40,866 nt of DNA from Alloalcanivorax mobilis (GTDB taxonomy: Bacteria > Pseudomonadota > Gammaproteobacteria > Pseudomonadales > Alcanivoracaceae). Location of the stretch: contig NZ_NMQZ01000046.1 of the NCBI RefSeq assembly GCF_002864685.1, positions 1-40,866 on the forward strand. The letters are read 5' to 3'. Each line of letters begins with the position of its first letter. The stretch's first letter is position 1. The notes under the pieces are model-generated. The model was not told where the DNA came from, ran no database searches, and was given only the letters and a program-made list of their open reading frames with translations. This document shows, one piece after another, positions 5,641 through 40,866 of this stretch. A program made the translations under genes and the position numbers.

Positions 5641-5788
5641 GGCGCTAGACGCCGGACGCCGGACGCCGGACGCCAAACCCTGGCACCTCAACGATCGGTG
5701 CGCGCAAAGTGCGCTTGCGTAGCCGCAATGCTCGTAATATTGGGTTTTGATCCTAGCGTCCGGCGTCCGGCGTCCGGCGTCTAGCGCC
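5641..5788. repeat. Heptamer inverted-repeat element 1 (GACGCCG type)
   Basis: The left arm (5641-5673) and right arm (5756-5788) form a perfect 33-bp inverted repeat made of GACGCCG units (three full copies plus edge variants GGCGCTA and GACGCCA), separated by an 82-bp core. The core begins with CAAACCC and ends near GGGTTTTG, which can extend the stem, and contains a small GCGC-AAAGT-GCGC hairpin. The right arm ends 1 bp from the rraA stop codon, so the element follows rraA and precedes the opgG promoter. This is the only copy in the window with perfectly matching arms. Confidence 0.9.
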
Positions 5789-5789
5789 C

Positions 5790-6272
5790 CTAAAGCAGCG
5801 CTTTCGGCGCGGTGATCACGCCGTTATTGTCCGCATAGACGTACTCGCCGGAGCGGAATACCACGCCACCGAAGACGATCTCGACATCAAGCTGGCCTTC
5901 GCCCCGGCGCACCGATTTGATCGGTACGCACCCGAGGGTCATGACGCCCACATCCAGCTTGGCCAACTCATCCACATCCCGGCAGGCGCCATGAATAATC
6001 ACCCCTTGCCAGCCATTTTTCACCGCGCTTTCGGCGATCATGTCGCCGATCAGGGCATTGCGCAGGCTGCCACCACCGTCCACCACCAGCACCTTGCCGG
6101 TGCCGTCCGTGGCCAACCGCTCCTTGACCCGGGAATTGTCCTCGAAGCATTTCACCGTGACGATCTCGCCGCCGAAGGCCTTGCGGCCGCCATAGCTGAA
6201 CCAGTTCAGCCCGGTTACCACCGACACCAGATCGGCGTTGTCATCGCACAGGTCGCAGGTGACGAAGCTCAT
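5790..6272 (-). CDS. rraA: RraA family regulator of ribonuclease activity
   Basis: A 160-residue protein matching the RraA/MenG-like fold family: [20 protein letters not shown] at the N-terminus, [19 protein letters not shown] (about 74-92), [15 protein letters not shown] and [10 protein letters not shown] near the C-terminus. In E. coli RraA binds RNase E and dampens its endonuclease activity. Related family members are aldolases (HMG/CHA aldolase type), and the GD...RD motif seen here is shared, so enzyme activity is not excluded. The start was chosen at ATG 6272, preceded by AAGGAGTG; the open frame upstream of it is not coding in style. A heptamer element abuts the stop codon. Confidence 0.9.
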
Positions 6273-6325
6273 GTTCACTCCTTGATTGGGGCCCGCCAAA
6301 GGCGGGCTGATTGGACGATTCAGGA

Positions 6326-7021
6326 TTAGAAGGTTTGCGGATAACGCTGCTTGAACTGACCGGCGAACACCGGGAAATCCCGATAGCGCACCCGGTAAGT
6401 GCCGGTGGATGGCCCAAGCAGGGCCATGCCGACCATCGCCTGCGCCACCAGACTGGCCTGCACCGGCAGCCAGTGGGCGTCGGTCCAGCGGGTCACCGGC
6501 TGCAGCCATTTGGAAAGCCGCGCACCCAGGGCTTCGGCACGGCGTGCCTCGCTGCGCTCTCCGAGCAGCAACGAGGGCTGCATAAACGCCAGCATCGGCA
6601 AGCCCATTGTTTCCAGACGCTGCTCCATTTCGCCTTTCACCCGCGCATAGAAAAACGGTGAGCGGGCCCGCGCATTCACCGCCGAAACCACCAAACACCG
6701 TTGCACGCCGGCCTGCAGAGCGAGCCGCGCGGCGCGCACCACCAGGTCTTCATCGACACGCCGGAATGCCTCCCGGGAACCGGCCCGTTTCATGGTCGTC
6801 CCCAGGGCACAGAACAGGTCATCGACCTGGAACTCATGGTGATGCTGATCCAGGTGATCCGGATCAATCACCGTCTGACGCAGGCGCGGATGTTCAATGG
6901 CCAGCGGCCGGCGTGTCAGCACGCGCACCTCGTCATAGGCCTGGCTGGCCAGCGTCAAGCGCAGGCACTGACCGCCCACCAGGCCGGTGGCACCGAGGAT
7001 CAAGGCTGTACGGGTCATCAT
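6326..7021 (-). CDS. NAD(P)-binding Rossmann-fold protein, TIP30/HTATIP2-like
   Basis: A 231-residue protein with an N-terminal dinucleotide-binding motif ([15 protein letters not shown], residues about 6-20), VRVLTRRPL at the second strand, and [28 protein letters not shown], followed by [23 protein letters not shown], which is the variant SDR active-site region (Y-x3-K-like YARVK). This matches the atypical short-chain dehydrogenase group annotated as NAD(P)H-binding or TIP30-like proteins. Substrate unknown. It lies between rraA and the sensor kinase on the same strand, 54 bp upstream of rraA and 43 bp after the kinase. Confidence 0.85.
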
Positions 7022-7063
7022 CTCTTCCCCTTGCCCGGCGGGCGATGGAGATTGCGCCGATGT

Positions 7064-9310: not shown

Positions 9311-9380
9311 TGACCCTCACCCTCGGAACCAGCGGGCGCTAAAGGTAACACGGTGTGCGCTGCGCGGCACGCAAACACGC

Positions 9381-9569
9381 TGGACGCTGGACGCTGGACG
9401 CTGGACGCCGGACGCTGGACGCTAAGACCCCTAATCGGAAACTACCGGTGTGTTTCCTGCCAAGCCAGGAAAGCACCCCAGGAAACACGCCAGTGATGTC
9501 CGAACCGGTTTTAGCGTCTGGCGTCTGGCGTCTGGCGTCTGGCGTCTGGCGTCCGGCGTCCGGCGTCTA
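9381..9569. repeat. Heptamer inverted-repeat element 2 (TGGACGC / GCGTCTG type)
   Basis: The left array is six heptamers (five TGGACGC, one CGGACGC; 9381-9422). The right array is eight (five GCGTCTG, two GCGTCCG, one GCGTCTA; 9514-9569). The arms differ at two of seven positions, but both differences become G-U pairs in RNA copied from the plus strand. The core carries GTGTTTCCTG (9450-9459) and CAGGAAACAC (9479-9488), a hairpin shared with other copies, and ends GGTTTTAGCGTC. It fills the divergent region between the sensor kinase and liuR and ends 4 bp from the LiuR operator. It is the only complete copy in a divergent spacer. Confidence 0.9.
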
Positions 9570-9573
9570 GCAC

Positions 9574-10039: not shown

Positions 10040-11203
10040 ATGTTCAACGGCGGCCTGGATTTTCAACTCGACGATACCCTCACCGCCCTGCGCGACAGCG
10101 TGCAGGCGTTCGCCCGCAAGGAGATCGCGCCGATCGCCGCCCGCGTGGACCAGGACAATCTGTTCCCCAACGAGCTGTGGAAGAAGCTCGGTGATCTGGG
10201 CGTGCTGGGCATCACCGTCAGCGAGCAATACGGCGGCGCCGGCCTGGGCTACCTGGCCCACACCCTGGTGATGGAGGAAATCTCGCGGGCGTCGGCGTCC
10301 ATCGGCCTGTCCTACGGCGCCCACTCCAACCTGTGCGTGAATCAGATTTTCCTCAACGGCACCGACGCCCAGCGGGAAAAATACCTGCCCGGGCTGGTCA
10401 GCGGCGAGCACATCGGCGCGCTGGCGATGAGCGAACCGGGCGCCGGCTCGGACGTGGTCAGCATGAGCCTGCGCGCGGACCAGAAAGGCGATCACTATCT
10501 GCTCAATGGCAACAAGATGTGGATCACCAACGGCCCCGACGCCCACACCTACGTGATCTACGCCAAGACCCAGCCGGACGCGGGCCCGCGTGGCATCACC
10601 GCCTTTATCGTCGAGCGCGATTTCCCCGGTTTCTCGCAAGCGCAGAAACTCGACAAGCTCGGCATGCGCGGCTCCAACACCTGCGAACTGGTGTTCCAGG
10701 ACTGCCCGGTGCCGCGCGAAAACATTCTCGGCAAGCTCAACGAAGGCGTGCGGGTTCTGATGAGCGGCCTGGATTACGAACGCACCGTTCTTTCCGGCGG
10801 CGCCACCGGCATTATGCAGGCCTGCCTGGACGTGGTGATGCCTTACGTTCACGAGCGCAAACAGTTTGGCCAGGCGATCGGCGAGTTTCAGCTGATGCAG
10901 GGCAAACTGGCGGACATGTACGTCACCCTGAACGCCAGCCGCGCGTATCTTTATCAGGTGGCGCGCAACTGCGACGCCGGCCGCGGCAGCCGCAAAGACG
11001 CCGCCGGCGCCATCCTTTATTGCGCTGAGAACGCCACGCAAATGGCCCTCGACGCAATCCAATGCCTGGGCGGCAACGGCTACATCAACGACTACCCCAC
11101 CGGCCGCCTGCTCCGCGACGCCAAGCTTTATGAAATCGGCGCCGGCACCAGTGAGATTCGACGCATGCTGATCGGCCGGGAGTTGTTTAATGAGACGGTG
11201 TGA
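10040..11203 (+). CDS. liuA: Isovaleryl-CoA dehydrogenase
   Basis: A 387-residue acyl-CoA dehydrogenase that oxidises isovaleryl-CoA to 3-methylcrotonyl-CoA with FAD, passing electrons to electron-transfer flavoprotein. Visible family motifs: [13 protein letters not shown] (about 127-139), [11 protein letters not shown] (159-169), and C-terminal [20 protein letters not shown], with [12 protein letters not shown]. The catalytic base typical of isovaleryl-CoA dehydrogenase is within [11 protein letters not shown] (Glu247), which separates it from short- and medium-chain enzymes whose base is near the C-terminus. The ribosome-binding site is GGGAGAAA. A heptamer element begins immediately after its stop codon. 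Confidence 0.95.
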
Positions 11204-11364
11204 ACCGCCAGACGCCAGACGCCGGACGCCGGACGCCGGACGCCGGACGCTTTGTCGGCTTTCGCTATGCTCAAGCCGACGTACAAAAACAGCGCTGCAG
11301 GAAACACCGCAACGAATTCCGAATCGGGTTTTAGCGTCTAGCGTCTAGCGTCCGGCGTCCAGCG
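11204..11364. repeat. Heptamer inverted-repeat element 3 (GACGCCG / TAGCGTC type)
   Basis: The left array (11211-11250) holds GACGCCA, four GACGCCG and GACGC. The right array (11334-11364) holds two GCGTCTA, one GCGTCCG and one GCGTCCA. The core has a perfect 8-bp hairpin GTCGGCTT/AAGCCGAC (11254-11261, 11273-11280). It keeps only the right half of the shared hairpin (CAGGAAACACC, from about 11308) plus GAATCGGGTTTTAGCGTC. It starts directly after the liuA stop and ends about 11 bp before the liuB ATG, inside the operon. Arms pair imperfectly even as RNA. Confidence 0.88.
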
Positions 11365-11375: not shown

Positions 11376-12986
11376 ATGCCAAAAATCATCACCCAACTCA
11401 ACAAAAGCGCCCCCGAGTACGCTCAATACCGCGAACACAATCTGGCGTTGCGTGAGCAGTTGCAGGAAAAACTTGAACGGGTTGCCCATGGCGGTGGCGA
11501 GGCGGCGGAGGCGCGGTTGCGCGAGCGTGGCAAGTTGCCGGTGCGCGAACGGATTCTGCGTTTGCTCGATCCGGGTTCGCCGTTTCTGGAAATTTCCGCG
11601 CTCGCCGCCGACGGCGTCTACCCGGGCGAGGATGTGCCCGCCGCCGGTTGCGTCGCGGGCATCGGCCGGGTCAGCGGCGTGGAGTGCATGATCGTCGCCA
11701 ACGATCCCACCGTGAAAGGCGGCAGTTATTATCCGCTGACGGTCAAAAAACACCTGCGCTGCCAGGCCATCGCCGCCGAGAACCGCCTGCCCTGCCTGTA
11801 CCTGGTGGACTCCGGCGGCGCCAATTTGCCGCGCCAGGATGAGGTGTTCCCGGACCGCGACCACTTCGGCCGGATTTTCTTCAACATGGCCAACATGTCC
11901 GCGCGCGGCATTCCGCAGATCAGCGTGGTGCTCGGCTCCTGCACCGCCGGCGGCGCCTACGTGCCGGCCATGGCCGACGAAGTGATCATGGTGCGCAATC
12001 ATTCCACCGTGTTCCTGGCCGGCCCGCCGCTGGTGAAAGCCGCCACCGGCGAGGTGGTCAGCGCCGAAGAGTTGGGCGGCGCCGCGTTGCACGGCGAGCA
12101 GTCCGGCGTCGCCGATCACCTGGCCGACGACGAACCCCACGCCCTGGATCTGGCGCGCCGTTGCGTGGCGCGCCTGAACTGGCGTAAACCCGAGCAACTC
12201 GACGTCAGCGAGCCACGCCCGCCGGCGTTCGACGCGGACGAACTGTACGGCTTGATTCCGCCCACCACCCGTTCGCCGATGCCGGCGCGGGAATTGATCG
12301 CGCGCATTGTCGACGGCTCCGATCTGGACGAATTCAAAGCCAACTACGGCACCAGCCTGGTCACCGGCTTCGCGCGCATTCACGGCTATCCGGTGGGCAT
12401 TCTCGCCAACGACGGCGTGCTCTATTCGGAATCCGCGCTCAAGGGCGCCCACTTCGTGGAGCTGTGCAACCAGCGCGGCATTCCGCTGCTGTTTCTGCAG
12501 AACATCACCGGCTTTATGGTCGGCAAAAAATACGAAGCCGAGGGCATCGCCAAACACGGCGCCAAGATGGTCAACGCGGTGGCCTGCGCCAGCGTGCCCA
12601 AATTCACCGTGATCACCGGCGGCAGCTTTGGCGCTGGCAACTACGGCATGTGCGGGCGCGCCTACGACCCGCGCTTTATGTTCATGTGGCCCAACGCGCG
12701 CATCTCGGTGATGGGCGGCGAACAGGCGGCCAGCGTACTGACCCAGGTGAAGGCCGCCTCGCTAAAGAAAAAAGGCGAACACTGGAGCGACCAGGACGCG
12801 CAACGGTTCCAAGACGACATGACCGCGCAATACGAAACCATGGCGCAGCCCTGGTACGCCAGCGCCCGCCTCTGGGACGACGGCGTCATCGACCCCACCG
12901 ACACCCGCGATGTTCTGGGTCTGGCGATTTCGGCAAGCCTTAACGCGCCGATTGGGGAGACTCGGTATGGGGTGTTTCGGATGTGA
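11376..12986 (+). CDS. liuB: 3-Methylcrotonyl-CoA carboxylase, carboxyltransferase (beta) subunit
   Basis: A 536-residue biotin-dependent carboxyltransferase that transfers carboxyl from carboxybiotin on LiuD to 3-methylcrotonyl-CoA, giving 3-methylglutaconyl-CoA. Length and motifs fit MCC beta: [76 protein letters not shown], and in the second half [40 protein letters not shown] and [13 protein letters not shown]. The start at ATG 11376 follows an AGGTATAAC stretch within the downstream edge of element 3. It is followed after 4 bp by another heptamer element. Confidence 0.96.
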
Positions 12987-12990: not shown

Positions 12991-13134
12991 AACGCCGGAC
13001 GCCGGACGCCGGACGCTTACACCCGGCTTTGAAAGGATCGGCGTGTTTCCTGTCAGCTCGGCACAGCCTGTCAGGAAACACGTCACACCTGGACGCCCAG
13101 GGTTAAGCGTCTGGCGTCTGGCGTCTGGCGTCCG
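12991..13134. repeat. Heptamer inverted-repeat element 4 (GACGCCG / GCGTCTG type)
   Basis: The left array is AACGCCG, two GACGCCG and GACGC (12991-13016). The right array is three GCGTCTG and one GCGTCCG (13107-13134). The single-position difference between arms is a G-U pair in plus-strand RNA. The core holds a perfect 11-bp inverted pair CGTGTTTCCTG (13042-13052)/CAGGAAACACG (13072-13082), the best preserved copy of the shared hairpin. It lies between liuB and liuC inside the operon. Confidence 0.9.
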
Positions 13135-13160
13135 GCCTCCCCCAAACTTCGGAGAAAACA

Positions 13161-13967: not shown

Positions 13968-15908
13968 ATGCCAGCCATCAATACGCTCCTGATCGCCAAC
14001 CGTGGGGAAATCGCCCGACGTATCCTGCGCACCTGCCGGCAACAGGGCATCCGCTCGGTGGCGGTCTATTCCGACGCCGACGCCAGCTTGCCCCATGTGC
14101 GCGAAGCGGATCAGGCGGTGCGTTTGGGCCCGGCCGCCGCCCGCGACAGTTATCTGGACATCGACAAAGTGATCCAGGCGGCGCTGGACAGCGGCGCCGA
14201 TGCGATTCACCCCGGCTATGGCTTTTTGTCCGAGAACACCGCGTTCGCCGCCGCCTGCGAGCGCGCCGGGCTGATCTTCGTCGGCCCCGACGCCAAGGCG
14301 ATCCGGGTAATGGGCGACAAAGCCGCCGCCCGCCAGTTGATGGCCGAGAGCGGTGTGCCGGTGCTGCCCGGCTTCGACCAGGAAGGCGCCGACGACGCCA
14401 CCCTGGCCGCCGAGGCACAACGGGTCGGCTTTCCACTGCTGATCAAGGCGGTCGCCGGCGGCGGTGGCAAAGGCATGCGCGCGGTCAACGAAGCCGCCGG
14501 CTTCGACGAGGCCCTGGCCGCCGCCCGCCGAGAGGCGAAAGGCGCATTCGGCGATGACCGGGTGCTGCTGGAGCGCTACCTGCCCACCGCCCGCCACGTG
14601 GAAGTGCAGGTGTTCGCCGACCAGCACGGCAATGCCGTGCATCTGTTCGAACGGGATTGCTCGGTGCAGCGCCGCCATCAGAAGATCATTGAAGAAGCGC
14701 CCGCCCCCGGCCTCAGTGAAGCGCAGCGCCAGGCGCTGGGTGAGGCGGCGGTCAAGGCCGCCCTGGCGATTGATTATCGCGGCGCCGGCACCGTGGAGTT
14801 TCTGTTCTCCCCCGAGGGAGAATTCTTCTTTATGGAGATGAACACCCGGTTGCAGGTGGAACACCCGGTCACCGAAATGATCACCGGCGAGGATCTGGTC
14901 GCCTGGCAACTGACGGTGGCCCAGGGCCAGCCGCTGCCCAAACTGCAATCCGACATTCACCGCCACGGTGCCGCCCTGGAGGTGCGCCTGTACGCGGAAA
15001 ATCCCTACCAGCAGTTCCTGCCCTCCTCCGGCACGCTGTCGCCGCTGCGCTGGCCCGCCGGCATCCGCGTGGACAGCGGCTTTGAACAGGGCGACACGGT
15101 GTCCGACCACTACGACCCGATGATCGCCAAGCTGATCAGCCACGGCGAGGACCGCGATCAGGCACGGCGCCGTCTGGCCAACGCCCTGGAATCACTGATG
15201 CTGGGCGGGGTTCATCACAACGGCGCCTTTCTGCACCGGGTGCTCAACAGCGACGCCTTCGCCAGCGCCGAACTGGACACCCGCTTGCTGGAGAAACAAC
15301 CGCGACTGATGGAACCGGCGACGCCGCCGCAAGGCGCCATGGCGGTGGCCGCCGCGGCCCTGGTCGCCGAGCGCATCGAGGGCAACGGCCCTTGGCGAAC
15401 ACTGAACAGTTGGCGGCCACTGGGACGGCGTACCACCCTACTGCCAATGCGTCTTGATGAGCGGCTGGTCACGGTGATCCTGGATCGACACAATGCCAGC
15501 GTGGACGGTGAACGCAACGCTTACCAATGGCGCTGGCAAGCGCCGCGCTTCGAGCTGAATTGGGGCGCTCAACACCTGGCCGGCCACGGCCTGCATCACG
15601 ATGGCGTGACCTGGCTGTTTATCAACGGTCAGGGTTACCCGATTCAAACTCATCCCAGCCGCGAGAGCGAACGCGCCGGCGGTCAGGGCGGTTTCAGCGC
15701 GCCGATGAGCGGCACCATCGTCGCCTGCCACGTGCAACCGGGCAGCACCGTCACCGCTGGCGCGGCGGTGATCACCCTGGAAGCCATGAAGATGGAACAC
15801 ACCCTGCGCGCCCCGGCGGCGGGCACGGTACGAAGCTTTGCGGTGAGTGCCGGCGACAGCGTCGCCGAGGGCGCCCTGCTGGTCGATTTTGCAACGGAGG
15901 AAGAATGA
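13968..15908 (+). CDS. liuD: 3-Methylcrotonyl-CoA carboxylase, biotin-containing (alpha) subunit
   Basis: A 646-residue protein containing biotin carboxylase and biotin-carrier domains. N-terminal LLIANRGEIARRILRTCRQQ, then HPGYGFLSENTAFA, the ATP-binding glycine loop AVAGGGGKGMRAVN, FERDCSVQRRHQKIIEEAPAP and FMEMNTRLQVEHPVTEMITG are all biotin carboxylase signatures. The carrier motif EAMKMEH near the C-terminus places the biotinylated lysine at about Lys608. It carboxylates biotin using ATP and bicarbonate and works with LiuB. Its stop overlaps the next gene's start (ATGA), so translation is coupled. Confidence 0.96.
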   Translation: MPAINTLLIANRGEIARRILRTCRQQGIRSVAVYSDADASLPHVREADQAVRLGPAAARDSYLDIDKVIQAALDSGADAIHPGYGFLSENTAFAAACERAGLIFVGPDAKAIRVMGDKAAARQLMAESGVPVLPGFDQEGADDATLAAEAQRVGFPLLIKAVAGGGGKGMRAVNEAAGFDEALAAARREAKGAFGDDRVLLERYLPTARHVEVQVFADQHGNAVHLFERDCSVQRRHQKIIEEAPAPGLSEAQRQALGEAAVKAALAIDYRGAGTVEFLFSPEGEFFFMEMNTRLQVEHPVTEMITGEDLVAWQLTVAQGQPLPKLQSDIHRHGAALEVRLYAENPYQQFLPSSGTLSPLRWPAGIRVDSGFEQGDTVSDHYDPMIAKLISHGEDRDQARRRLANALESLMLGGVHHNGAFLHRVLNSDAFASAELDTRLLEKQPRLMEPATPPQGAMAVAAAALVAERIEGNGPWRTLNSWRPLGRRTTLLPMRLDERLVTVILDRHNASVDGERNAYQWRWQAPRFELNWGAQHLAGHGLHHDGVTWLFINGQGYPIQTHPSRESERAGGQGGFSAPMSGTIVACHVQPGSTVTAGAAVITLEAMKMEHTLRAPAAGTVRSFAVSAGDSVAEGALLVDFATEEE

Positions 15909-17890
15909 CAACACAATCCACACCTCTCCCGACCCCTCTCTGGCAACCGGATCAGGCGCGCCTGAGCCACAGCCAGTTGAGCGACTTCTGGCGCCAGGCC
16001 GAGCAGCACAGCGGCGAACGCTTCGCCGATTACCGGGCCCTGCACCGCTGGTCGGTGAACCAACCAGAAGCGTTCTGGGATCAGGTCTGGCGTTTTTGCG
16101 ACCTGCGCGGCGAACCAGGCGCCCGGGTGCTGGAAGCCTCGGGCACCTTCCGGCATACGCGCTGGTTTCCCGAGGCACGCATCAACCTGGCGGAAAATCT
16201 GCTCGCCCGCCAGGACGACCACCCGGCGCTGGTGAGCATCGGCGAAGGCGGTGACCGCCAGGAAATCAGTTACACCGGCCTGCGCGTGGCCGCCGGTCAG
16301 GTGGCGGCGCAATTGAAAGCCGCCGGCGTGCAGCCCGGCGACCGGGTCGCCGGCTATATGCCCAACCGCATCGAAACCGTGGTGGCGGCGCTCGGCGCCG
16401 CCTGGATCGGCGCGATCTGGTCCTCCTGTTCTCCGGATTTCGGCATCCAGGGGGTGATGGATCGCTTCGGCCAGATCGAACCCAAGGTGTTGTTCGCCTG
16501 CGACGGTTATCAGTACAACGGCAAGTGGATCGAACTGGACGATCGCCTTCACCAGTTGCGTGAACAATTGGCGCCGCAATTGATGGTGGTGATTCCCGGC
16601 AAGGGCGAGCGCACCGCCGTGCGCCAGGCACTCAACTGGAGCGACTGGCTGGCCGCCGCCGAGCCGGCGCCGCCGTTCGCCGAGCTGCCGTTCAATCATC
16701 CGCTGTATATCCTTTACTCCTCCGGCACCACCGGCGCGCCCAAGTGCATCGTGCACGGCACCGGCGGCACCCTGATTCAACACGCCAAGGAACACCGTCT
16801 GCACGGCGACCTGACCCGCGACGACGTGTTGTTCTATTTCACCACCTGCGGTTGGATGATGTGGAACTGGCTGGTCGGTGGCTTGCAGACCGGCGCCACC
16901 CTGGTGCTCTACGACGGCAACCCGGCGTGGCCGGACGCCACCCGCCTGTTCGATCTCGTCGACGCGGAAAACATCACCCACTTCGGCACCAGCGCCAAGT
17001 TTATCCAGGCGGTGGAGAAAGCCGGCGCCGTGCCGCGCGACAGCCATGATCTCGGCACCCTGCGCACTTTGCTCTCCACCGGCTCGCCGCTGCTGCACGA
17101 GAGCTACGATTTTCTTTACCAACAGGTCAAACCGGATCTGCTGGTCAGCTCAATTTCCGGCGGCACCGACATTATCTCCTGCTTCGCGCTCGGCAACCCG
17201 ATGCTGCCGGTGTACCGGGGCGAGTTGCAGTGCCTGGGGCTGGGCCTGGACGTGGCGGTGGTCAACGACGACGGTCAGCCGGTGAGTGGCGAAAAAGGCG
17301 AGCTGGTGTGCCTGTCGCCCTTTCCCGCCTGCCCGGTGGCCTTCTGGAACGACCCCGACGAGCAGCGCTTCCACGATGCCTACTTCGAGCGCTTCGCCTC
17401 GCTGGGCAAGGACATCTGGGCGCACGGCGACTACGCGGAAATCATTGCCCACGAAGGCCACGACGGCTTGGTGATCCACGGCCGTTCCGACGCCGTGCTC
17501 AACCCCGGCGGCGTGCGCATCGGCACCGCCGAGATCTATCGCCAGGTGGAAACCCTGGAACAGATCCGCGAAGCCATCGTGATTGGCCAGCAATGGCAGG
17601 GCGACGTGCGCGTGGTGCTGTTCGTGGTGCTCGCCGACGGTGTTGAACTTACCGATGATCTGCAAAAAACCATTCGCGCCACCATTCGCGCCGGCGCCAG
17701 CCCGCGCCACGTACCGGCGGTGATTCTCACCGTGCCGGAGATTCCACGCACGGTGAGCGGCAAAATCGTCGAGCTGGCGGTGCGCGACGTGGTACACGGC
17801 CGCGAAGTGCGCAACCGCAACGCGCTGGCCAACCCGGACGCGCTGGAGCATTTCGCGGATCGGCCTGAGTTGGGGGCGCGTGACGCTTGA
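15905..17890 (+). CDS. Acetoacetyl-CoA synthetase (acetoacetate-CoA ligase)
   Basis: A 661-residue ANL-superfamily ligase that activates acetoacetate, an end product of leucine breakdown, to acetoacetyl-CoA. Motifs: ILYSSGTTGAPKCIVHGTGG (about 268-287), TTCGWMMWNWLVGGL, SGGTDIISCFALGNP, AHGDYAEI, HGRSDAVLNPGGVRIGTAEI and the catalytic-lysine region RTVSGKIVELAVRD (Lys about 620). Length matches the 650-residue family. The start chosen is the ATG overlapping the liuD stop and preceded by GGAGGAAGA; a longer open frame extends upstream inside liuD but is not coding there. The stop codon lies inside the left heptamer array of element 5. Confidence 0.95.
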   Translation: MTTQSTPLPTPLWQPDQARLSHSQLSDFWRQAEQHSGERFADYRALHRWSVNQPEAFWDQVWRFCDLRGEPGARVLEASGTFRHTRWFPEARINLAENLLARQDDHPALVSIGEGGDRQEISYTGLRVAAGQVAAQLKAAGVQPGDRVAGYMPNRIETVVAALGAAWIGAIWSSCSPDFGIQGVMDRFGQIEPKVLFACDGYQYNGKWIELDDRLHQLREQLAPQLMVVIPGKGERTAVRQALNWSDWLAAAEPAPPFAELPFNHPLYILYSSGTTGAPKCIVHGTGGTLIQHAKEHRLHGDLTRDDVLFYFTTCGWMMWNWLVGGLQTGATLVLYDGNPAWPDATRLFDLVDAENITHFGTSAKFIQAVEKAGAVPRDSHDLGTLRTLLSTGSPLLHESYDFLYQQVKPDLLVSSISGGTDIISCFALGNPMLPVYRGELQCLGLGLDVAVVNDDGQPVSGEKGELVCLSPFPACPVAFWNDPDEQRFHDAYFERFASLGKDIWAHGDYAEIIAHEGHDGLVIHGRSDAVLNPGGVRIGTAEIYRQVETLEQIREAIVIGQQWQGDVRVVLFVVLADGVELTDDLQKTIRATIRAGASPRHVPAVILTVPEIPRTVSGKIVELAVRDVVHGREVRNRNALANPDALEHFADRPELGARDA

Positions 17891-18021
17891 CGCCGGACGC
17901 CGGACGCCGGCCGCTAAAACCCGGCGCGGAAAGAATGGACATGTTTTCTGCAACGCAGACGTAACAGAAAACACGTCACACCAATCCGATTAAGGGTTTA
18001 GCGTCCAGCGTCCAGCGTCCA
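17882..18021. repeat. Heptamer inverted-repeat element 5 (GACGCCG / GCGTCCA type)
   Basis: The left array is GACGCTT, three GACGCCG and a GCCGCTA variant (17882-17916). The right array is three GCGTCCA (18001-18021). The left array includes the stop codon and last codons of acetoacetyl-CoA synthetase. The core follows the shared plan: CTAAAACCCGG after the left arm, TGTTTTCTG (17942-17950)/CAGAAAACA (17965-17973) hairpin, CACGTCACACC, and GGGTTTAGCGTC before the right arm. The hairpin has changed on both sides (CC to TC, GG to GA), so pairing is preserved. Confidence 0.9.
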
Positions 18022-18313
18022 GCTTCCGACGACGTCTTTTGGCCCAATGGCACGGCACTGTTGCCTCGAACCTTACGAGGCCGGGGCGCCAGCGCACGTG
18101 TTAGCGTGCAGGCGTGCTGCGTGTAAGCGCGCCAGGCTATCTCCCACGGCGGCGCTGCAGCGATGCCGGGAACAGGTAGCGCGTCCCGCCGCACCAGCTC
18201 GTCGAAGCACTGCCGCTGTTTTCCTACATTCCAAATCGTTTCTGACGGACAGACCCGCCCTACCTTGCCTGTTAGCGTGATGCACAACAGATTGTTGTTG
18301 TCATTCACTTTTA
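18022..18313. other. Intergenic region without a convincing gene
   Basis: About 290 bp between element 5 and brnT. It contains a small hairpin CCTCG/CGAGG near 18065-18081 and two copies of GTTAGCGTG (near 18100 and 18271). A 110-codon minus-strand frame crosses it but runs into the heptamer array and has no recognisable features. I considered an integron attachment site because of the neighbouring toxin-antitoxin pair, but no paired RYYYAAC/GTTRRRY sites were found. Its origin is unknown; it may have arrived together with brnTA. Confidence 0.4.
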
Positions 18314-22276: not shown

Positions 22277-22433
22277 GTTGAAAGTTAAAGGTTAAAAGTT
22301 GAACGCGATAAAAGCTCAATCGGATTGCTCGCCCTGCCCGCGGTATGCCCCTGCGTGTCGGCGCGGCCGGGCCCTATCGGCAGGCATGGGCTCTCCCGCG
22401 TTTAACTTTTAACTTTCAACTTTCAACTTTTCC
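22277..22433. repeat. Heptamer inverted-repeat element 6 (GTTAAAA/GTTGAAA type)
   Basis: The left array is GTTGAAA, GTTAAAG, GTTAAAA, GTTGAAC then GCG (22277-22307). The right array, read as complement, is GTTGAAA, GTTGAAA, GTTAAAA, GTTAAAC then GCG (22398-22427), with a further degenerate unit. The arms pair over about 31 bp with one real mismatch. The core of about 90 bp is GC-rich. The element lies between two convergent genes, and its right arm encodes the last residues (KVES) and stop codon of the GMC oxidoreductase. Confidence 0.88.
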
Positions 22434-26147: not shown

Positions 26148-26900
26148 ATGTGTTCCGACTTCCTGCAACAGCTTCTCGCCCGCCGGGACACCTGGCGCGG
26201 CCGCGACCCGGACGCCGCCATGCGCAGCGGTCGTGCCACCGGTTTCCAGGCCCTGGATGGCCTGCTGGAACAAGGTGGCTGGCCGGATTCCGGGCTGGTG
26301 GAGTTATTGTGCACTCTGCCCTGCCCGCCGCTGATGCACCTGCTGTTGCCGTTGCTGGCCGGCGGCGATGGCGCACGGGTGATCGCCAACCCGCCGGCGC
26401 GCCCGTCGGCGCCGGCGCTGGCCCGTGCCGGGGTCGATCTGCGCCAATTGCTGGTGCTGCAAAGCCGCGAGCGGGCGCCGCTGCTGCGTGCCTGCCTGGA
26501 GGCCGTCGCCAGCGACAGCGTCGGCGTGATGGTGCTGTGGGCCCCGGGCGGGGCCCTGCCCGCTGGCACGCTGCGTCGTTTCCATCTTGGCGCCCAACAG
26601 GGCCGTTGCCTGCTGATCCTGGTGCGCCCCCGGCGGGCCGCCAGCCAGCCCAGCCCGGCACCGTTGCGCCTTGATCTGAGCTGTTCCGCGCCCGGCCAGC
26701 TGACCGTCGCCGTGCACAAGCAGCCGGGCGGGCGCCCGGGCGCCCATTGTCAGGTTACCGTGCTGCCGGAGCATCTGCGCCGGGCGCCGCCGGCTTGCGC
26801 CACCCTGCCGGCGCTTACCCGGCGCCCGCTCGTCGATCACTTGCCTTCGCCCCTGCCCCCGCCGCCCGGCCCCCTGCCGCTGAGCGAGTTGCGCCCGTGA
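26148..26900 (+). CDS. imuA: ImuA, SOS mutagenesis accessory protein
   Basis: A 250-residue RecA/SulA-like protein that begins the ImuA-ImuB-DnaE2 translesion cassette. Typical features are the N-terminal ATGFQALDGLLEQGGWPDSG (about 31-50), VELLCTLPCPPLMHLLLPLL, then ARVIANPPARPSAPALARAG and LLVLQSRERAPLLRACLEAV, corresponding to a RecA-like fold with a degenerate nucleotide-binding loop. The C-terminus is proline-rich. In other bacteria ImuA modulates assembly of the mutasome with RecA and ImuB. The stop overlaps the imuB GTG start (GTGA). A perfect LexA box lies 20 bp upstream. Confidence 0.92.
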   Translation: MCSDFLQQLLARRDTWRGRDPDAAMRSGRATGFQALDGLLEQGGWPDSGLVELLCTLPCPPLMHLLLPLLAGGDGARVIANPPARPSAPALARAGVDLRQLLVLQSRERAPLLRACLEAVASDSVGVMVLWAPGGALPAGTLRRFHLGAQQGRCLLILVRPRRAASQPSPAPLRLDLSCSAPGQLTVAVHKQPGGRPGAHCQVTVLPEHLRRAPPACATLPALTRRPLVDHLPSPLPPPPGPLPLSELRP

Positions 26901-28327
26901 GCGCGCTGTGGGTGGCGCTGCGCTTTCCGCTGTTGCCGTTGGAGGCGGAGGCCGGCCCCAGCACCGCCCCCCGGGCACTGGTGCGCCGCCACCGTATTGA
27001 GCTGGCCAATGGCGCCGCCCTGGCCGCTGGCGTCAGCCCGGGCCTGCGACTGGCCACCGCCCGCGCCCTGTGCGAACACCTGGAAATCCAGGAGGCCAGT
27101 GCCTCCGCCCGGGAGAACGCCCTGGCGCGCCAGGCACGGCATCTGCTCGCCTTGACGCCACAGGTGTGCCCGGCGCCCCCGGACACCCTGCTGCTGGAAG
27201 TGGGCGGCTGTCTGAAGCTGTTCGGCGGCTTCCGCAACCTGCTGGCCCGGATCGACCAGTACCGCCTGCATTGTCCGCTGACCAGCCGCCTGGGGCTGGG
27301 CCACACGCCGCTGGCGGCTTGCCACCTCAGCGAGCTGCCGGCCCTGGACACCCGGCCGGAGACCGCCCGTTTCCAGGCCTGGCTGGCGGAGTTGCCCCTT
27401 GCCGGGTTGGACCTGGAACCGGCTTTGCGGGAGCGCTTGCAAGCGCCCGGCTTCCGCACCCTGGGCGAGCTGTTTCCACTGCCTCGCCCGGCTCTGGGAA
27501 AGCGCTTTGGCGCCGCCTTTCTGGACTGGCTGCAACGGTTGCTCGGCGAGAAAGCGGACCCGCGCCGGCCGATTGCCCCGCCACGGCCGTTCCGCGCCCA
27601 TCGGGAATTCGATCAGCCGATTGAGAACCTGACCCTGCTGGAAACGCCGATGGCCGCCCTGCTGGCGGACTTGGAAGACTCCCTCCGCCGCCACCAGGAA
27701 GAAGTGGCGGCGATCCGCTGGCACCTGATGCTGAACAACCGCCAGCGCGACACCCTGATCGTGCGGCGCGCCCGGCCCGGCCACGATGCCGCCACCTGGC
27801 TGGATCTCAGCCGCCGGCGCCTGGAGCACCATACACTCGGCGCCGGGGTGCTGGGCCTGGCCCTGGACAGCAGCCGTTGCCGGCCGCGCAACCCGGCCCT
27901 GGCCGAGCTGTTCCCCGACCCCGGCGCGCGCCCGCCCCTGGAACGGCTGGTGGAGAAGCTGGCGATGGAGCCGGCGCTCAATCTTTACCAACCCTCCGAC
28001 GGCGGCGAACACTTACCCGAACAGGACGAACGGGCCCTGCCCTTCCTGGGCCGGCCGGCCACCGCTCGTCTGGCGGAGCCCTCCCCCGGCCGCGTCAACG
28101 ACCGTCCGCTGTGGTTGCTCGATCCGCCCCGGCGCCTGGACGACCACAACAACGTGCCCCACTGGCGCGGCCGCCCGCTCACCCTGTTCCCGCAAAGCGA
28201 GCGCTTCAGCCAGCCCTGGCACGGCGCCGCCCCGCGCCGCTACCGCGTCGCCCATCATCCGGATGGCCTGTGTTGCTGGGTCTTTCAGGATGACCAGCAT
28301 GGTTGGTGGTTGCAGGGGTTTTTTTAG
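26897..28327 (+). CDS. imuB: ImuB, catalytically dead Y-family polymerase homologue
   Basis: A 476-residue DinB/UmuC-related protein beginning at GTG 26897 (SALWVALRFPLLPLEAEAG), overlapping the imuA stop. The position of the catalytic DMDxFF motif of Y-family polymerases is occupied by VALRFPLLPLE, and the second acidic motif by LLLEVGGCLKLFGG, so polymerase activity is not expected, as in known ImuB. C-terminal FPQSERFSQPWHG, YRVAHHPDGLCCWVFQDD fits the ImuB tail. ImuB acts as hub binding ImuA, the beta clamp and DnaE2. The stop codon is the first base overlap with the heptamer array of element 7. Confidence 0.94.
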   Translation: MSALWVALRFPLLPLEAEAGPSTAPRALVRRHRIELANGAALAAGVSPGLRLATARALCEHLEIQEASASARENALARQARHLLALTPQVCPAPPDTLLLEVGGCLKLFGGFRNLLARIDQYRLHCPLTSRLGLGHTPLAACHLSELPALDTRPETARFQAWLAELPLAGLDLEPALRERLQAPGFRTLGELFPLPRPALGKRFGAAFLDWLQRLLGEKADPRRPIAPPRPFRAHREFDQPIENLTLLETPMAALLADLEDSLRRHQEEVAAIRWHLMLNNRQRDTLIVRRARPGHDAATWLDLSRRRLEHHTLGAGVLGLALDSSRCRPRNPALAELFPDPGARPPLERLVEKLAMEPALNLYQPSDGGEHLPEQDERALPFLGRPATARLAEPSPGRVNDRPLWLLDPPRRLDDHNNVPHWRGRPLTLFPQSERFSQPWHGAAPRRYRVAHHPDGLCCWVFQDDQHGWWLQGFF

Positions 28328-28443
28328 TTAAAAGTTAAAAGTTAAAAGTTAAAAGTTAAAAGTTAAAAGAAAATGCTCGAGCGCGACGTCGGCGATCCCG
28401 TTGCCACGGCCCTGGATCGCGTTTTAACTTTTAACTTTCAACT
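28326..28443. repeat. Heptamer inverted-repeat element 7 (AGTTAAA type)
   Basis: The left array is six perfect AGTTAAA units (28326-28367), starting on the last bases of the imuB stop codon. The right array is TTTTAAC, TTTTAAC, TTTCAAC (28422-28442), the complement of GTTAAAA/GTTGAAA. The core is about 50 bp. Arms are unequal, six against three units. It separates imuB from dnaE2, which are usually adjacent, within the SOS cassette. Confidence 0.9.
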
Positions 28444-28469
28444 CCCCATCCAGCCCCCTGGAGACGCTT

Positions 28470-31400: not shown

Positions 31401-31604
31401 GACGAAACCGGCAACACCAACGTGGTGATCTGGAGCGCCATTCAGGCGCGTTTTCGCACCGTGCTGCTGAAAAGCCCCCTGGTCACCGTCACCGGCACCG
31501 TGGAAATCAGCCCCGAAGGCATCGTGCATCTGATGGCTGGCCGCCTCGACGACACCAGCGACGCTCTCGACGAACTGATCGTCCGCTCAAGAGATTTCAA
31601 ATAA
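28470..31604 (+). CDS. dnaE2: Error-prone DNA polymerase DnaE2
   Basis: A 1044-residue C-family polymerase. It has the N-terminal PHP domain (FAELHTTSAFTFLTGASLPQ, ALGYEALAITDDGSLAG), a palm with PPDIDVDFEHERREEVIQYL (about 379-398) holding the catalytic aspartates, VGGFVITRDPVHTLVPVENA, FGGYGFPESHSASFALLVYV, and a C-terminal OB fold (QLVRVAGLVTNRQRPGSAKG, FMTLEDETGNTNVV). Length and absence of a tau-binding tail fit DnaE2 rather than replicative DnaE (about 1160). The likely start is TTG 28470 after CTGGAG. It performs translesion synthesis with ImuB. A heptamer element intervenes after imuB. Confidence 0.95.
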   Translation: MPFAELHTTSAFTFLTGASLPQELVYQAHALGYEALAITDDGSLAGVARAYQAHKTLKKRLAEEGGTLTLKLIVGSHFRLSDEHGELRLILLARDRQAYAEIATLITRGRRRAEKGHYRLHWRDLARLERSSLCLWLPAGDERDPHHATLLKAHFGERFWLACELLQEGNDALHYRYCHQLASRFDLAMTAANDVHYHGPERQPLQELLTALRLNTTVAQLGRRRFQNDQRHLRPLEDLRAVYPEALLREAAWIAAQCHFEMNEISYQYPEEVVPPGQNADQYLAALVHQGASARYPDGVPVSVSRLLERELALIGELRYAHYFLTVHDIVAYARGQNILCQGRGSAANSAVCYCLGVTEVDPGRSQLLFERFISKERDEPPDIDVDFEHERREEVIQYLYRKYGRDRAALAATVIHYRTRSAVRDVGRALGVDMDVIERLSGNLAWWDKPDSLLERFQEVGLGNSTLGRQYRELVQQLVGFPRHLSQHVGGFVITRDPVHTLVPVENAAMADRTLIQWDKDDLESLGLMKVDVLALGMLTAIRKTLDLIGLYRPRPLTMQAIPAEDPATYQMLCKGDSLGVFQVESRAQMNMLPRLRPEKFYDLVIEVAIVRPGPIQGDMVHPYLRRRDGLERTDYPDEKVAAVLERTLGIPIFQEQVIQLVMVAAGFSGGEADQLRRAMASWGKSGELMRFESKVIQGMLANGYSADYARRLFEQMKGFGGYGFPESHSASFALLVYVSAWLKRHHTSAFYCGLLNSLPMGFYSPSQILQDAQRHGIETRPVDALHSHWDHTLEQTQRQKLGVQPALRLGLRQIKGFNEEAALRLVAARSQQPFSSVRDLCERARLNRREREALVAGNALRGLSGHRHQAHWEAQALEASRPLLPDAQGPRDDHDGVYLDAPSERTSLIEDYRHLGLTLGRHPMALVRHLPRFKACRRASELKRARPGQLVRVAGLVTNRQRPGSAKGTLFMTLEDETGNTNVVIWSAIQARFRTVLLKSPLVTVTGTVEISPEGIVHLMAGRLDDTSDALDELIVRSRDFK

Positions 31605-34111: not shown

Positions 34112-34202
34112 AAAGGCGAAAGGCGAAAGGCGAAAGGCGAAAAAAACACGGTGCGTGATCGCTGTGTCTTCCATTTTCGACTTTCGGCCGTTCTCCGATT
34201 TC
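34112..34202. repeat. Heptamer inverted-repeat element 8 (GGCGAAA type)
   Basis: The left array is four perfect AAAGGCG units (34112-34139) and an A-run. The right side (34173-34202) holds ATTTTCG, ACTTTCG, GCCGTTC and TCCGATT, a degenerate set of 7-bp units complementary to CGAAAAT/CGAAAGT-like repeats. The core of about 30 bp has ACAC...GTGT symmetry (34146-34167). The element lies between two convergent stop codons and its right edge overlaps the lipoprotein stop. Confidence 0.75.
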
Positions 34203-36630: not shown

Positions 36631-36658
36631 ACTGAAAACTGAACACTGAACACTGATT
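36631..36658. repeat. Heptamer array 9 (ACTGAAC type), single arm
   Basis: Four tandem 7-bp units, ACTGAAA, ACTGAAC, ACTGAAC, ACTGATT, lie between two convergent genes, ending 10 bp before the Anbu stop codon. I could not find a matching inverted array nearby. The unit is the complement of the GTTCAGT array at the end of the window. Confidence 0.8.
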
Positions 36659-37388: not shown

Positions 37389-37419
37389 AACCGATACTCC
37401 GCGCCGGGCGCGTGTTGTC

Positions 37420-38217: not shown

Positions 38218-39140
38218 ACGACCTCCAGATATTCCTCGCGGATGGTGTCCGCCAGTTCGTTAACGCGGCGCAGAAAATCGGTCAGGTATTCGTGCAACCC
38301 GATTTCCACGATGTGCTGCAGATCGCCATATTGCAGGCGCGCGAACTGCACCGCCGCCAGCCGTTTCGATTGCAGCCCGGCCTGCCCCTCAATGGCCGGC
38401 AACAACTCGCAGAGCATTTGCATGCAAGAGTGCAGCGAGCGCGGCACCTCGGGCCGCAGAATCAGCAACTCCGCGACTCGCTCGGCGTTGATCGTTTCGC
38501 TGTAGATTTCCCGATAGGCTTCGTAGGCGCCCACCGAGCGCAGCAGTGCGTGCCAGCGGTAGAAGTCCACGGCGGTGTCGCCGGCCAGGCTGTTCTGGTG
38601 TTTCACATCAAGAATGCGCGCGGTGTTGTCGGCCCGCTCGATAAAGGTGCCCAGGCGCAGAAACCGAAAGGCGTCGCTGCGCATCACGGTGCCGTAGGTC
38701 GCGCCCCGAAACAGGTGCGAGCGGTTCTTCACCCAGTCAAAGAAACTGGTGGCGCCGTAGCCATCCAGGCCCAGCTCACGAATATCGCGCAGCTCCAGCC
38801 AGGTACTGTTGATGCTTTCCCACATCTCAGCGGTGATTTTTCCGCGCACCGCGTGGGCGTTTTCCCGGGCCGAGCGCAGGCAGTGAAAAATGCTGCCCGG
38901 GTTGCTTTCGTCCAGCGTGAAGAAATGCATCACCTGGTTGACTTGAATTTCGCCGTACTTTTCCCGGTACAGCTCCAGCCCGCCGGTGATGATCAGTGGC
39001 GCGCTGATCTCGTCGCGCGCATCCACCGCGAACGGGATCAACGACAGGTTCCAGGCCACGTCCAGCATGCGTGCGATGTTTTCCGCGCGCTCGATAAAGC
39101 GCGACAACCAGTACAGCTCGGCGGCGGTGCGGCTCAGCAT
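38214..39140 (-). CDS. Alpha-E domain-containing protein (COG2307)
   Basis: A 308-residue, largely helical protein with the family opening MLSRTAAELYWLSRFIERAE, NIARMLDV, and a second ER-motif LRLGTFIERADNTARILDVK (about 180-200). TEMWESINSTWLELRDI and LHSCMQMLCELLPAI are also typical. Alpha-E proteins occur almost always beside circularly permuted ATP-grasp proteins and are thought to act with them in making or moving a peptide-like product. The start overlaps the ATP-grasp stop by a few bases, and its stop overlaps the transglutaminase start. Confidence 0.95.
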   Translation of the reverse strand: MLSRTAAELYWLSRFIERAENIARMLDVAWNLSLIPFAVDARDEISAPLIITGGLELYREKYGEIQVNQVMHFFTLDESNPGSIFHCLRSARENAHAVRGKITAEMWESINSTWLELRDIRELGLDGYGATSFFDWVKNRSHLFRGATYGTVMRSDAFRFLRLGTFIERADNTARILDVKHQNSLAGDTAVDFYRWHALLRSVGAYEAYREIYSETINAERVAELLILRPEVPRSLHSCMQMLCELLPAIEGQAGLQSKRLAAVQFARLQYGDLQHIVEIGLHEYLTDFLRRVNELADTIREEYLEVV

Positions 39141-40570
39141 GGCGCATTCTCCAGAACCCAGGTGTCCTTGGTGCCGCCGCCCTGGGAAGAATTCACCACC
39201 AGAGAGCCCGCCGTCATCGCCACCCGGGTCAGCCCGCCGGGCACCAGCCGGATGTCCGGACCGCTGAGCACGAACGGCCGCAGATCAATGTGCCGGGGCG
39301 CGATGCCCTGCTCCACGAACACCGGACACGACGACAACGACAACGTCGGCTGGGCAATGTAGTTGTCCGGCCGCGCGCGCACGCGATCACGGAACGATTC
39401 GATCTCGGCGGCGCTCGCCGCCGGCCCCACCAGCATGCCGTAGCCTCCGGCGCCATGGACTTCCTTGACCACCATTTCCGAGAGGTGCTCGAGCACGTAG
39501 GCCAGATCTTCCGCCTTGCGGCACTGCCAGGTGGGCACGTTCGCCAACATCGGTTCTTCGTCCAGGTAGAAGCGGATCATCGCCGGCACATAGGGGTAGA
39601 TCGACTTGTCGTCCGCCACCCCGGTGCCCACCGCGTTGGCGAGCACCACATTGCCCTGGCGGTACACCGACAGCAGGCCGGGCACGCCGAGCATGGAATC
39701 GGCGCGGAACGCCAGGGGGTCCAGGTAATCGTCATCAATGCGCCGATAGATCACATCGACCCGTTGTGGGCCGGCGGTGGTGCGCATATAGACAAACCCG
39801 TCCTTGACGAACAGATCGGCGCCCTCGACCAGCTCAATGCCCATTTGCTGGGCCAGAAAGGCGTGTTCGAAATAGGCGCTGTTGAAACGCCCCGGGGTGA
39901 GCAGCACCACGCTCGGGTTGGCCACCACGCTGCCCTGTTGCAGGGTCTCCAGCAACAGCGACGGATAGTGCTCCACCGGCGCCACCGATTGATGGCTGAA
40001 CAACTCGGGAAACAGGCGCATCATCATGCGCCGGTTCTCGATCATGTAGCTGACCCCGGAGGGTGTGCGCAGGTTGTCCTCCAGCACATGCCAGGTGCCT
40101 TCGCCATCGCGGATCAGATCCACCCCACTGATCTGCGAATAGATCTGATTATGCAGATCCACGTTCTGCATGCAGGGCTGATACTGGGCGTTGCCAAAGA
40201 TCTGCTCGGCGGGCACCCGGCCATCACGGATGATCAACTGCTCATGGTAAATATCGTGCAGAAAACAATTGAGCGCGCGCACCCGCTGGATCACGCCCTG
40301 CTCCAGGCGCCGCCATTCGTCGCCGGGAATAATGCGCGGCAGGGTATCAAAGGGAATCAGCCTTTCGGTGCCGCTTTCCTCGCCATACACATTGAAGGTG
40401 ATACCGACGCGGTGAAACCGCAGTTCGGCTTCCTTGCGTTTGCGCATCAGCACATCACCGGTCTGGCCGAGCAACCATTGGTGATAGCTGCGGTAATGGG
40501 AGCGCACCTGACCCGCGGGCAACAACATCTCATCGAATCCGGATACCTCCGGCAAGGACAACGATCGCAT
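39134..40570 (-). CDS. Circularly permuted type 2 ATP-grasp protein (COG2308)
   Basis: A 478-residue predicted ATP-dependent amide ligase. The family signatures are RFHRVGITFNVYGEESGTER, LIPFDTLPRIIPGDEWRRLE, GVIQRVRALNCFLHDIYHEQ, VDLIRDGEGTWHVLEDNLRT, PSGVSYMIENRR and VKEVHGAGGYGMLVGPAAS. ATG 40570 with an AGGGA site is preferred to an upstream in-frame TTG. First gene of the four-gene minus operon with alpha-E, transglutaminase and Anbu, a set proposed to ligate and later cleave a peptide tag or metabolite; the product is unknown. Confidence 0.94.
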   Translation of the reverse strand: MRSLSLPEVSGFDEMLLPAGQVRSHYRSYHQWLLGQTGDVLMRKRKEAELRFHRVGITFNVYGEESGTERLIPFDTLPRIIPGDEWRRLEQGVIQRVRALNCFLHDIYHEQLIIRDGRVPAEQIFGNAQYQPCMQNVDLHNQIYSQISGVDLIRDGEGTWHVLEDNLRTPSGVSYMIENRRMMMRLFPELFSHQSVAPVEHYPSLLLETLQQGSVVANPSVVLLTPGRFNSAYFEHAFLAQQMGIELVEGADLFVKDGFVYMRTTAGPQRVDVIYRRIDDDYLDPLAFRADSMLGVPGLLSVYRQGNVVLANAVGTGVADDKSIYPYVPAMIRFYLDEEPMLANVPTWQCRKAEDLAYVLEHLSEMVVKEVHGAGGYGMLVGPAASAAEIESFRDRVRARPDNYIAQPTLSLSSCPVFVEQGIAPRHIDLRPFVLSGPDIRLVPGGLTRVAMTAGSLVVNSSQGGGTKDTWVLENAPC

Positions 40571-40821
40571 GATGCTTTCCCTGATCAAAAGGAGTTCCCA
40601 GCGGGAAACTCCAGGTCATGGGGAGTGTGGCGCGCGTCTTCCCACTCAAGACTGCGCGCCGTCGTCCATCTCACCCTTCAGCTCACCCCTTCAGCTCACC
40701 CCTTCAGCATAAGCAAGGCCTATGCCAGAAAAGGTAAAACTTTGGGGCACAACGGCGCCTCGAAATGGGGCATGGAGGGGGATTCAGGGGGGGTGGTGCC
40801 CCGTTGGGAGGCAGGGGGGGG
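40571..40821. other. Upstream region of the Anbu operon, with short direct repeats
   Basis: No gene seen. Between about 40676 and 40708 the unit CTTCAGCTCACCCC is repeated about two and a half times (14-bp period). From 40750 the plus strand becomes strongly G-rich, with several G-runs of five to nine bases. The operon promoter presumably lies here, but no clear boxes were recognised. Confidence 0.5.
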
Positions 40822-40866
40822 ATTCAGTGTTCAGTGTTCAGTGTTCAGTGTTCAGTGTTCAGTGTT
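40822..40866. repeat. Heptamer array 10 (GTTCAGT type), runs off the window
   Basis: ATTCAGT followed by five perfect GTTCAGT units and a partial one, up to the last base of the window. The unit is the complement of ACTGAAC in array 9. It probably is one arm of an element whose core and other arm lie outside. A contig may end here because of the repeat. Confidence 0.85.

Follow-up and report, generated by a model that had tools for sequence, protein, structure and literature searches.

Why heptamers abound among the long simple repeats of bacteria is an open question; an earlier survey, as cited in PMC4692102 and in PMC4679880 (MacGregor), found heptanucleotides to be over-represented, and a cause in the footprint of a polymerase was proposed. 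Heptamers of the sequence GGGAATC have been described in Xanthomonas and Nostoc (Rehm et al. 2015, PMC4692102), and the Xanthomonas arrays are reported there to include 70 (Xcc) and 75 (Xac) convergent pairs that form inverted repeats. In Geobacter metallireducens, 49 elements of four heptamers are reported (PMC2700814), along with a class of 16 putative regulator sites, 15 of which contain five; these sites are depicted as loops, and pairing is described as the usual arrangement of the heptamer classes, so that inverted heptamer pairs may be present in Geobacter too. Galileo and Tetris are described as foldback-like transposons, the former with internally repetitive inverted ends. The DNA analysed here is a whole contig of Alloalcanivorax mobilis (NZ_NMQZ01000046.1; C41 of 92 contigs in a genome of 4.10 Mb, G000), which is 40,866 bases long and is referred to as the window. 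The original prediction, made from the letters alone, had placed in it ten loci of tandem arrays with strict 7-bp periodicity, and exact 7-bp arrays were recovered at all ten with a lag scan and Tandem Repeats Finder, a weak left arm at 22277 being missed by the former and listed by the latter. Eight loci had been claimed as inverted pairs, one of them decayed; seven are clear inverted pairs, and the decay of the right arm at 34112 was seen by eye. The locus at 36631 is single, and no partner of the array at 40822 is visible because that array runs to the contig end, by which it is truncated. We consider it likely that the loci are small, non-autonomous, palindromic mobile elements of the foldback type, with arms grown by slippage and a core that is inverted through the arms.

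The inverted arrangement is a property of the genome as a whole. In 0.81 Mb of A. mobilis sequence (about half of it long contig stretches, the rest mostly picked around matches), 198 distinct arrays fell into six pentamer families (GACGC 119, GTTRA 30, CACGC 24, CAAGC 17, ACTGA 7 and GCGAA 1), with the units GACGCNN, CACGCNN, CAAGCNN, GTTRAAA, ACTGAAC and GGCGAAA. Several unit families thus share one 7-bp period in one genome, as had been predicted, but the six units quoted originally collapse to four families, GACGCCG and TGGACGC being one and GTTAAAA and AGTTAAA another. Neighbouring arrays of the same family, up to 400 bp apart, were ordered +- in 73 cases (GACGC 51, GTTRA 14, CACGC 4, CAAGC 4), -- in three, ++ in one and -+ in none, as expected of a real family with inverted symmetry. 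There were five mixed-family neighbours, including one -+ (ACTGA then GACGC).

The main family has the layout (GACGCNN)n - TAAACCC...GTGTTTCCTG...CAGGAAACAC...GGGTTTA - (NNGCGTC)n and a length of 70-239 bp (median 154, n=51). In the commonest core (type R1), TAAACCC is followed by about 20 bp, GTGTTTCCTG, a loop, CAGGAAACAC, another 20 bp or so and GGGTTTA; a second core type contains TTGCGTAGCCGCAATGC and terminates in GGGTTTTGATCTTA or similar. At the inner end of the arms, the unit reads GACGCTA in 32 of 51 cases on the left and in 29 of 51 on the right, and the inner-junction pattern GACGCTNAACCC had 101 matches in the A. mobilis genome against none for a control. As 45 of the 51 GACGC cores belong to a single component of homologous sequences, the symmetry of this family is, judged from the alignments, largely inherited from a spreading element, and the idea of symmetry without sequence conservation, arising anew at each locus, is not supported. 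When the core was considered as a covarying RNA, its hairpin proved to be mainly sequence-conserved, with two-sided change in one of 11 pairs, and this candidate was rejected.

Dispersal of whole elements was best seen in the closest pair of copies, L026 (contig C18) and L192 (C47). Their cores are 98.8% identical over 81 bp and their left arms have seven units each, their right arms five and nine; the flanks beyond 40 bp match at 180/335 (54%) and 164/295 (56%) positions and are unrelated, reverse-complemented controls from other loci being no lower (58% and 59%). Five GACGC pairs were aligned together with 60 bp of flank, three of them in the same orientation and two in opposite ones, and in each pair the homology faded at the arms. 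As aligned, the GACGC family was thereby shown to consist of homologous cores set in unrelated flanks, in both orientations, with homology ending at the arms. A covariance model of the core gave at least 118 strand-matches in the A. mobilis genome (124 candidates were scored per genome, so that 118 may be a lower bound), equivalent to about 60 loci, most listed loci being matched on both strands; it gave 36 in G012, 10 in G003 and 6 in G008, whereas G005 and G011 had 2 apiece and the remaining 28 of the 34 genomes had none. As a side observation, the 60 bp flanking 51 GACGC and 13 GTTRAAA elements are, when read towards the element, G-rich and C-poor on both sides; for GACGC elements the first 30 bp have G 0.38 and C 0.20, with normal values again by 60-90 bp. 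Whether this composition reflects a target preference or something else is unexplained.

The elements are also narrowly distributed. Triple GACGCCG with up to two mismatches matched the A. mobilis genome 414 times (2 for the reversed control), and matches occurred in 18 of 57 genomes, with 405 in G008, 61 in G012 and 11 or fewer in the other relatives, such that only three of 13 genus members exceeded 11. In 274 evenly drawn Gammaproteobacteria, the A. mobilis genome included, triple GACGC was found in 15 and triple CAAGC in 12, with maxima outside A. mobilis of 5 and 8 matches per genome, respectively. Occupancy of individual sites was compared beside the carboxyltransferase gene of the window (11376-12986; protein 94% identical to that of Alloalcanivorax venustensis), which has one GACGC element on either side, at 11206 and 12992. 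The comparison covered A. venustensis, A. marinus and nine other named relatives. In A. venustensis (L036), the genes are separated by 3 bases at the 11206 site and by about 13 at the 12992 site, and A. marinus SY10-13 carries the element at 12992 and, at the upstream (11206) site, a short palindrome of another kind. CACGC-type palindromes were found beside this gene in L062, another palindrome upstream of it in L045, and further palindromes, which we take to be REP-like, in L040 and L044. Among 12 whole-genome congeners, a GACGC array was absent from the 11206 site in all 12 and from the 12992 site in 11, the only carrier being G012, which is probably A. marinus SY10-13 since the sequence of the 12992 element is the same. 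Short CACGC pairs occupy the upstream site in G012 and the downstream site in G008.

These observations bear directly on the explanation that the arrays are microsatellites born in place, their inverted pairing being a side effect of selection for hairpins in the transcript, for instance terminators or structures that stabilise mRNA. The window elements do lie between genes or at their ends, those that were folded fold better than nearly all shuffles, and the similar arrays of Xanthomonas are reported as mostly transcribed and positionally conserved (PMC4692102). Nevertheless, the homology of 45 of the 51 cores, the sharing of cores without flanks by the aligned copies, the scarcity of elements among congeners at the two sites tested and the restriction of more than 11 GACGCCG matches to three genus members all speak against an origin in place, which we regard as quite improbable.

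Within the arms, variation was shown by the alignments to proceed by whole 7-bp units and independently on each side. Adjacent units of an arm were identical in 213 of 337 cases, where unit frequencies predict 34%; this excess speaks for local duplication and upholds the predicted local expansion of 7-nt units. At a single site shared by G012 and G003 (L207/L208), the cores are identical over 82 bp, with flanks at 87% and 91% identity, and G003 has the longer left arm. Arm growth would proceed by replication slippage that keeps an ancestral period, and the likeliest cause of the period of seven would lie in the replication machinery, as earlier proposed for the heptamers of other bacteria. Orthologous copies with the same core but different numbers of units make it possible to measure how fast, and by what mechanism, such 7-bp steps occur. 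At L182:6972-7605 (contig C27), a CAAGCTG arm of about 80 units faces an opposite arm of three. At L133:14555-14805 (C67), a GACGC element lies within an apparent pair of CAAGC heptamer arrays, which suggests one palindrome nested in the loop of another.

It had further been proposed that both arms of a locus carry the same or a nearly identical unit and that one arm is copied into the other. The first statement holds for the pentamer, which is common to both arms in 122 of 127 elements, but not for the last two bases, which often differ; at 9383 the left arm is mostly GACGCTG and the right mostly GACGCCA. In detail, 101 elements have GACGC in both arms, 21 have CACGC in both, four are mixed, and in one the right arm is itself mixed; for the common core, the corresponding numbers are 84 with GACGC, seven with CACGC and one mixed. 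The elements are related by descent, so that these counts are not independent events. That mixed common-core element (L198, R1-like core) is an artefact of matches inside the core, although still counted, and the nominally mixed L141, with a 175-bp core, may not be a true pair. In a stricter tally of 98 elements (arms of at least three units, cores of at most 130 bp), 89 had GACGC and six CACGC on both sides, and three were mixed.

Directed copying of one arm into the other, or the writing of both from a 7-nt template, could account for this matching of families, and also for the fact that one and the same core is flanked on both sides by GACGC arms in some genomes but by CACGC arms in others. 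At the level of single units, the overlap of variable dinucleotides between the two arms was 0.494 against 0.471 after re-pairing in the first set of 51 elements (permutation, P 0.18), with a slight excess in larger sets (0.472 against 0.421, P 0.019, for 74 elements of A. mobilis; 0.459 against 0.419, P 0.032, for 100 elements of three genomes). Mirrored units, however, were not in excess (P 0.42 and 0.27 in the sets of 74 and 100), the lengths of the two arms were uncorrelated, mixed-arm elements such as L118 exist, and family matching is explicable by plain descent from a single parent. Copying of individual units from arm to arm is therefore at best weakly indicated, and a directed process that copies an arm or writes both from a template appears highly improbable; the shared pentamer family and the core inversion between species described below speak for some exchange between arms.

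A particular asymmetry was seen in G008, where each of the nine listed GACGC elements has one arm of 7-18 units and another of 2-5. Of the long arrays, 16 of 19 adjoin the same core end, which starts with ATAATG, TAATG, ATAACG or CAATG, the exceptions being L275:962, L284 and L286; the loci with long arrays were chosen for their matches. By eye, several of the loci L272-L287 of this genome carry composite elements of several hundred bp with internal palindromic repeats of about 92 bp, whose copy number varies; a long GACGCCG array forms the boundary on one side.

Positional orthologs were obtained by matching 900-bp flanks between genomes, which gave 18 pairs. Ten of these, together with L207/L208 (added by eye and then checked), were ranked by the orientation of their cores; the eight left out had unrelated or short-matching cores, matched on one flank only or belonged to other families, and the ranking was one-sided where the other genome yielded a single core (G005, G011). 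At two loci, comparison of the aligned sequences showed the core to be inverted between species with collinear flanks. The core of L203 in G005 is identical to that of L204 in G008 at 82 of 84 bases after flipping, the 400-bp flanks match collinearly (319/395 and 354/405), and the outermost arm units remain with the flanks. For L027 of A. mobilis and L264 of G012, which share a core of only 24 bp, the inverted score is 28 against 16 and the flanks are again collinear (329/393 and 322/403). An inversion of this kind would be the expected outcome of recombination or template switching within the arms. In the proposed mechanism, the inverted arms recombine or switch template, the core would flip as a consequence, and both arms may in this way be held in one pentamer family.

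At a third orthologous site, L253 of G012 has GACGC arms and L202 of G003 has CACGC arms, and the inverted score exceeds the direct one (84.5 against 64), although only marginally the next best core elsewhere (83.0). One might go further and suppose that exchange between arms is a working part of the element, which flips the core and swaps the heptamer family on both sides, core and arms being separable modules; we offer this as a tentative idea and rate it as rather unlikely. If true, L253/L202 would be a before-and-after pair.

Several points weigh against the interpretation of the loci as foldback-type mobile elements. Of the 11 ranked pairs, five have the core in direct orientation (L025/L254, L133/L262, window 12997/L161, L260/L205 and L207/L208), only the two described first are clearly inverted, L253/L202 is marginally so, and three gave no decision. 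An inversion could be mimicked by excision and re-insertion in the opposite orientation, or by independent insertion in the same gap; for L203/L204, with 82 of 84 bases matching, independent insertion is unlikely. Slippage is deduced from patterns rather than observed, and the matching of arm families may be plain descent. The GTTRAAA cores are mostly unrelated (two of 14 linked), so that it is not established that this family spreads as whole elements, and its arms may have another history. No signal of target-site duplication was found (P 0.19 for GACGC and 0.72 for GTTRAAA), the ends being variable, and no tip outside the arms is strongly conserved. Finally, no linked transposase was found, PF01797 being the enzyme family searched.

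Additionally, the sequences beyond the arms were not complementary (P 0.74 for GACGC and 0.97 for GTTRAAA), and among the 101 inner-junction matches in A. mobilis, nearly all of which were inspected by eye, no long element that could be an autonomous partner was evident. The GTTRAAA elements were also considered as attC-like sites and set aside because of their arm order (GTTRAAA...TTTYAAC), which we take to be opposite to that of attC. Tandem-repeat inverted ends and, for GACGC in five aligned pairs, dispersed copies in unrelated flanks are features of foldback-type elements, and shortness, terminal inverted repeats and many copies are those of miniature inverted-repeat transposable elements. 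Foldback transposons, such as FB of Drosophila, are usually far larger than the elements described here.

In the favoured interpretation, that of slippage-grown foldback-type elements, mobilisation would depend on an enzyme acting in trans. A specific version of this would be that the elements are similar to REP/REPIN sequences and are moved by REP-associated tyrosine transposases (RAYTs), the heptamer arms forming an unusual stem. The elements are indeed multi-copy palindromes, and PF01797 (RAYT-like) genes are present in 13 of 13 genus members, with three in A. mobilis. The number of these genes per genome (2-5), however, does not follow that of GACGCCG matches (0 to 414), so that in this family, the one searched, the linked and tracking enzyme suggested in the original prediction was not found; moreover, no GACGC array was found in the 6.9-7.5-kb stretches around the three A. 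mobilis PF01797 genes, and no GTAG tag was seen by eye at the element ends. We therefore hold this version to be unlikely. A lone ACTGAAC array at L157:3195-3217 (contig C14), a short distance upstream of a RAYT-like reading frame, is the only period-7 array found in these three stretches.

Within the window, the five GACGC elements, like the other features described here, are given without strand. The element at 5641..5790 has arms at 5648-5674 and 5756-5781 and an 82-bp core of the second type (TTGCGTAGCCGCAATGC). That at 9377..9568 has an R1-type core (GTGTTTCCTG...CAGGAAACAC). The element at 11206..11364 begins 2 bp past the stop codon of an acyl-CoA dehydrogenase gene (10040-11203), between it and the carboxyltransferase gene, and that at 12992..13136 lies between the latter and an enoyl-CoA hydratase gene and has an ortholog in G012 and A. 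marinus SY10-13. The fifth (17882..18027, R1 core) overlaps the 3' end of an AMP-binding-enzyme reading frame (15527-17890). Two GTTRAAA elements follow: one at 22277..22431, with inverted arms around a 99-bp GC-rich core, whose right arm extends into the 3' end of a GMC oxidoreductase gene, and one at 28326..28443, with six left and three right units. The latter lies between an impB/mucB-family gene and a DNA polymerase III alpha gene (26747-31604), a gene pair that presumably resembles the imuB-dnaE2 mutagenesis cassette. The remaining features are a GGCGAAA array (34112..34200, the array itself at 34112-34142, with the decayed right arm TTTTCGACTTTCGGCC just downstream, by eye), a single ACTGAAC array without a visible inverted partner (36631..36656) and an ACTGAAC-family array (TTCAGTG; 40823..40866). 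Folding of six of the seven paired elements (all except the one at 9377) as single-stranded DNA, in some cases after trimming to 150 bases, gave z-scores of -10.6 (5641), -3.5 (11206), -8.3 (12992), -6.0 (17882), -4.5 (22277) and -4.1 (28326).

At threshold, the lag scan of the window listed 15 period-7 arrays and one period-13 array, together with six period-14 rows that are period-7 arrays at double lag, and nothing at any other period from 2 to 15; 50 Markov shuffles gave no arrays at periods 6, 7, 8, 9 and 12. At its lowest score, Tandem Repeats Finder returned 43 rows, weaker arrays of other periods included. In 400 kb of other A. mobilis sequence (contigs C1 and C67), there were 15 arrays of period 7, six of period 15, three each of periods 9 and 12, and 0-2 for each of the remaining periods from 4 to 30, multiples of 7 excepted. 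The window is therefore unusually dense, with 15 period-7 arrays in 41 kb as opposed to 15 in 400 kb. The period-13 array, at 40670-40708, comprises three copies of CTCACCCCTTCAG and is the sole non-heptamer tandem repeat above the threshold. A minus-strand tRNA-Ala called by ARAGORN inside the carboxyltransferase gene (12175-12274) is most likely a false positive. The elements can also break assemblies: the window contig terminates in the middle of an array, and the small contig C68 stops only a few bases from one.

Compared with known systems, each trait has precedents elsewhere. With the Xanthomonas arrays, as reported (PMC4692102), the present ones share the period of seven, variable unit positions, a mostly non-coding location and close inverted pairs; the Xanthomonas genomes studied there have one unit type, whereas several families, homologous cores and lineage-specific sites are found here, and the G-rich GGGNATC unit is not matched by any unit here. 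A shared core, dispersal of whole elements and core inversion are not described in the relevant parts of that report. Geobacter (PMC2700814) and Beggiatoaceae (PMC4679880) resemble A. mobilis in having abundant heptamer arrays; the TAACTGA repeats of the latter are reported as direct in 169 cases against one inverted, unlike the inverted pairs here, and neither core homology nor inversion is described in the pertinent sections of either report. REP/REPIN sequences and GTAG-/CGTC-tagged palindromes (PMC3733652) are likewise dispersed, multi-copy palindromes, but REP/REPIN are presented there as hairpins of 20-40 bp with an unpaired tag, heptamer arms being unmentioned in the sections concerned, and CGTC lies here within a paired arm. 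The inverted arms of short tandem repeats and the variable arm length and middle recall the described architecture of the foldback transposons Galileo and Tetris, which are eukaryotic. Flipping as such is not new, because palindrome-associated inversions are reported from chloroplast spacers. The literature returned for Alcanivorax and heptamers held, judged from its listing, nothing on these elements, and a term search of PMC4060949 was negative. The statement in the original prediction that no such family is described thus needs to be narrowed, as paired heptamer arrays are already known in Xanthomonas and apparently in Geobacter; the combination was found described nowhere in the literature searched, a search that left most subscription journals outside. 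Relative to the passages considered from these reports, the present elements stand apart in that several heptamer families, homologous cores, lineage-specific sites and inversion of the core come together in them, and they show the spread and flipping of palindromes between bacterial genes.

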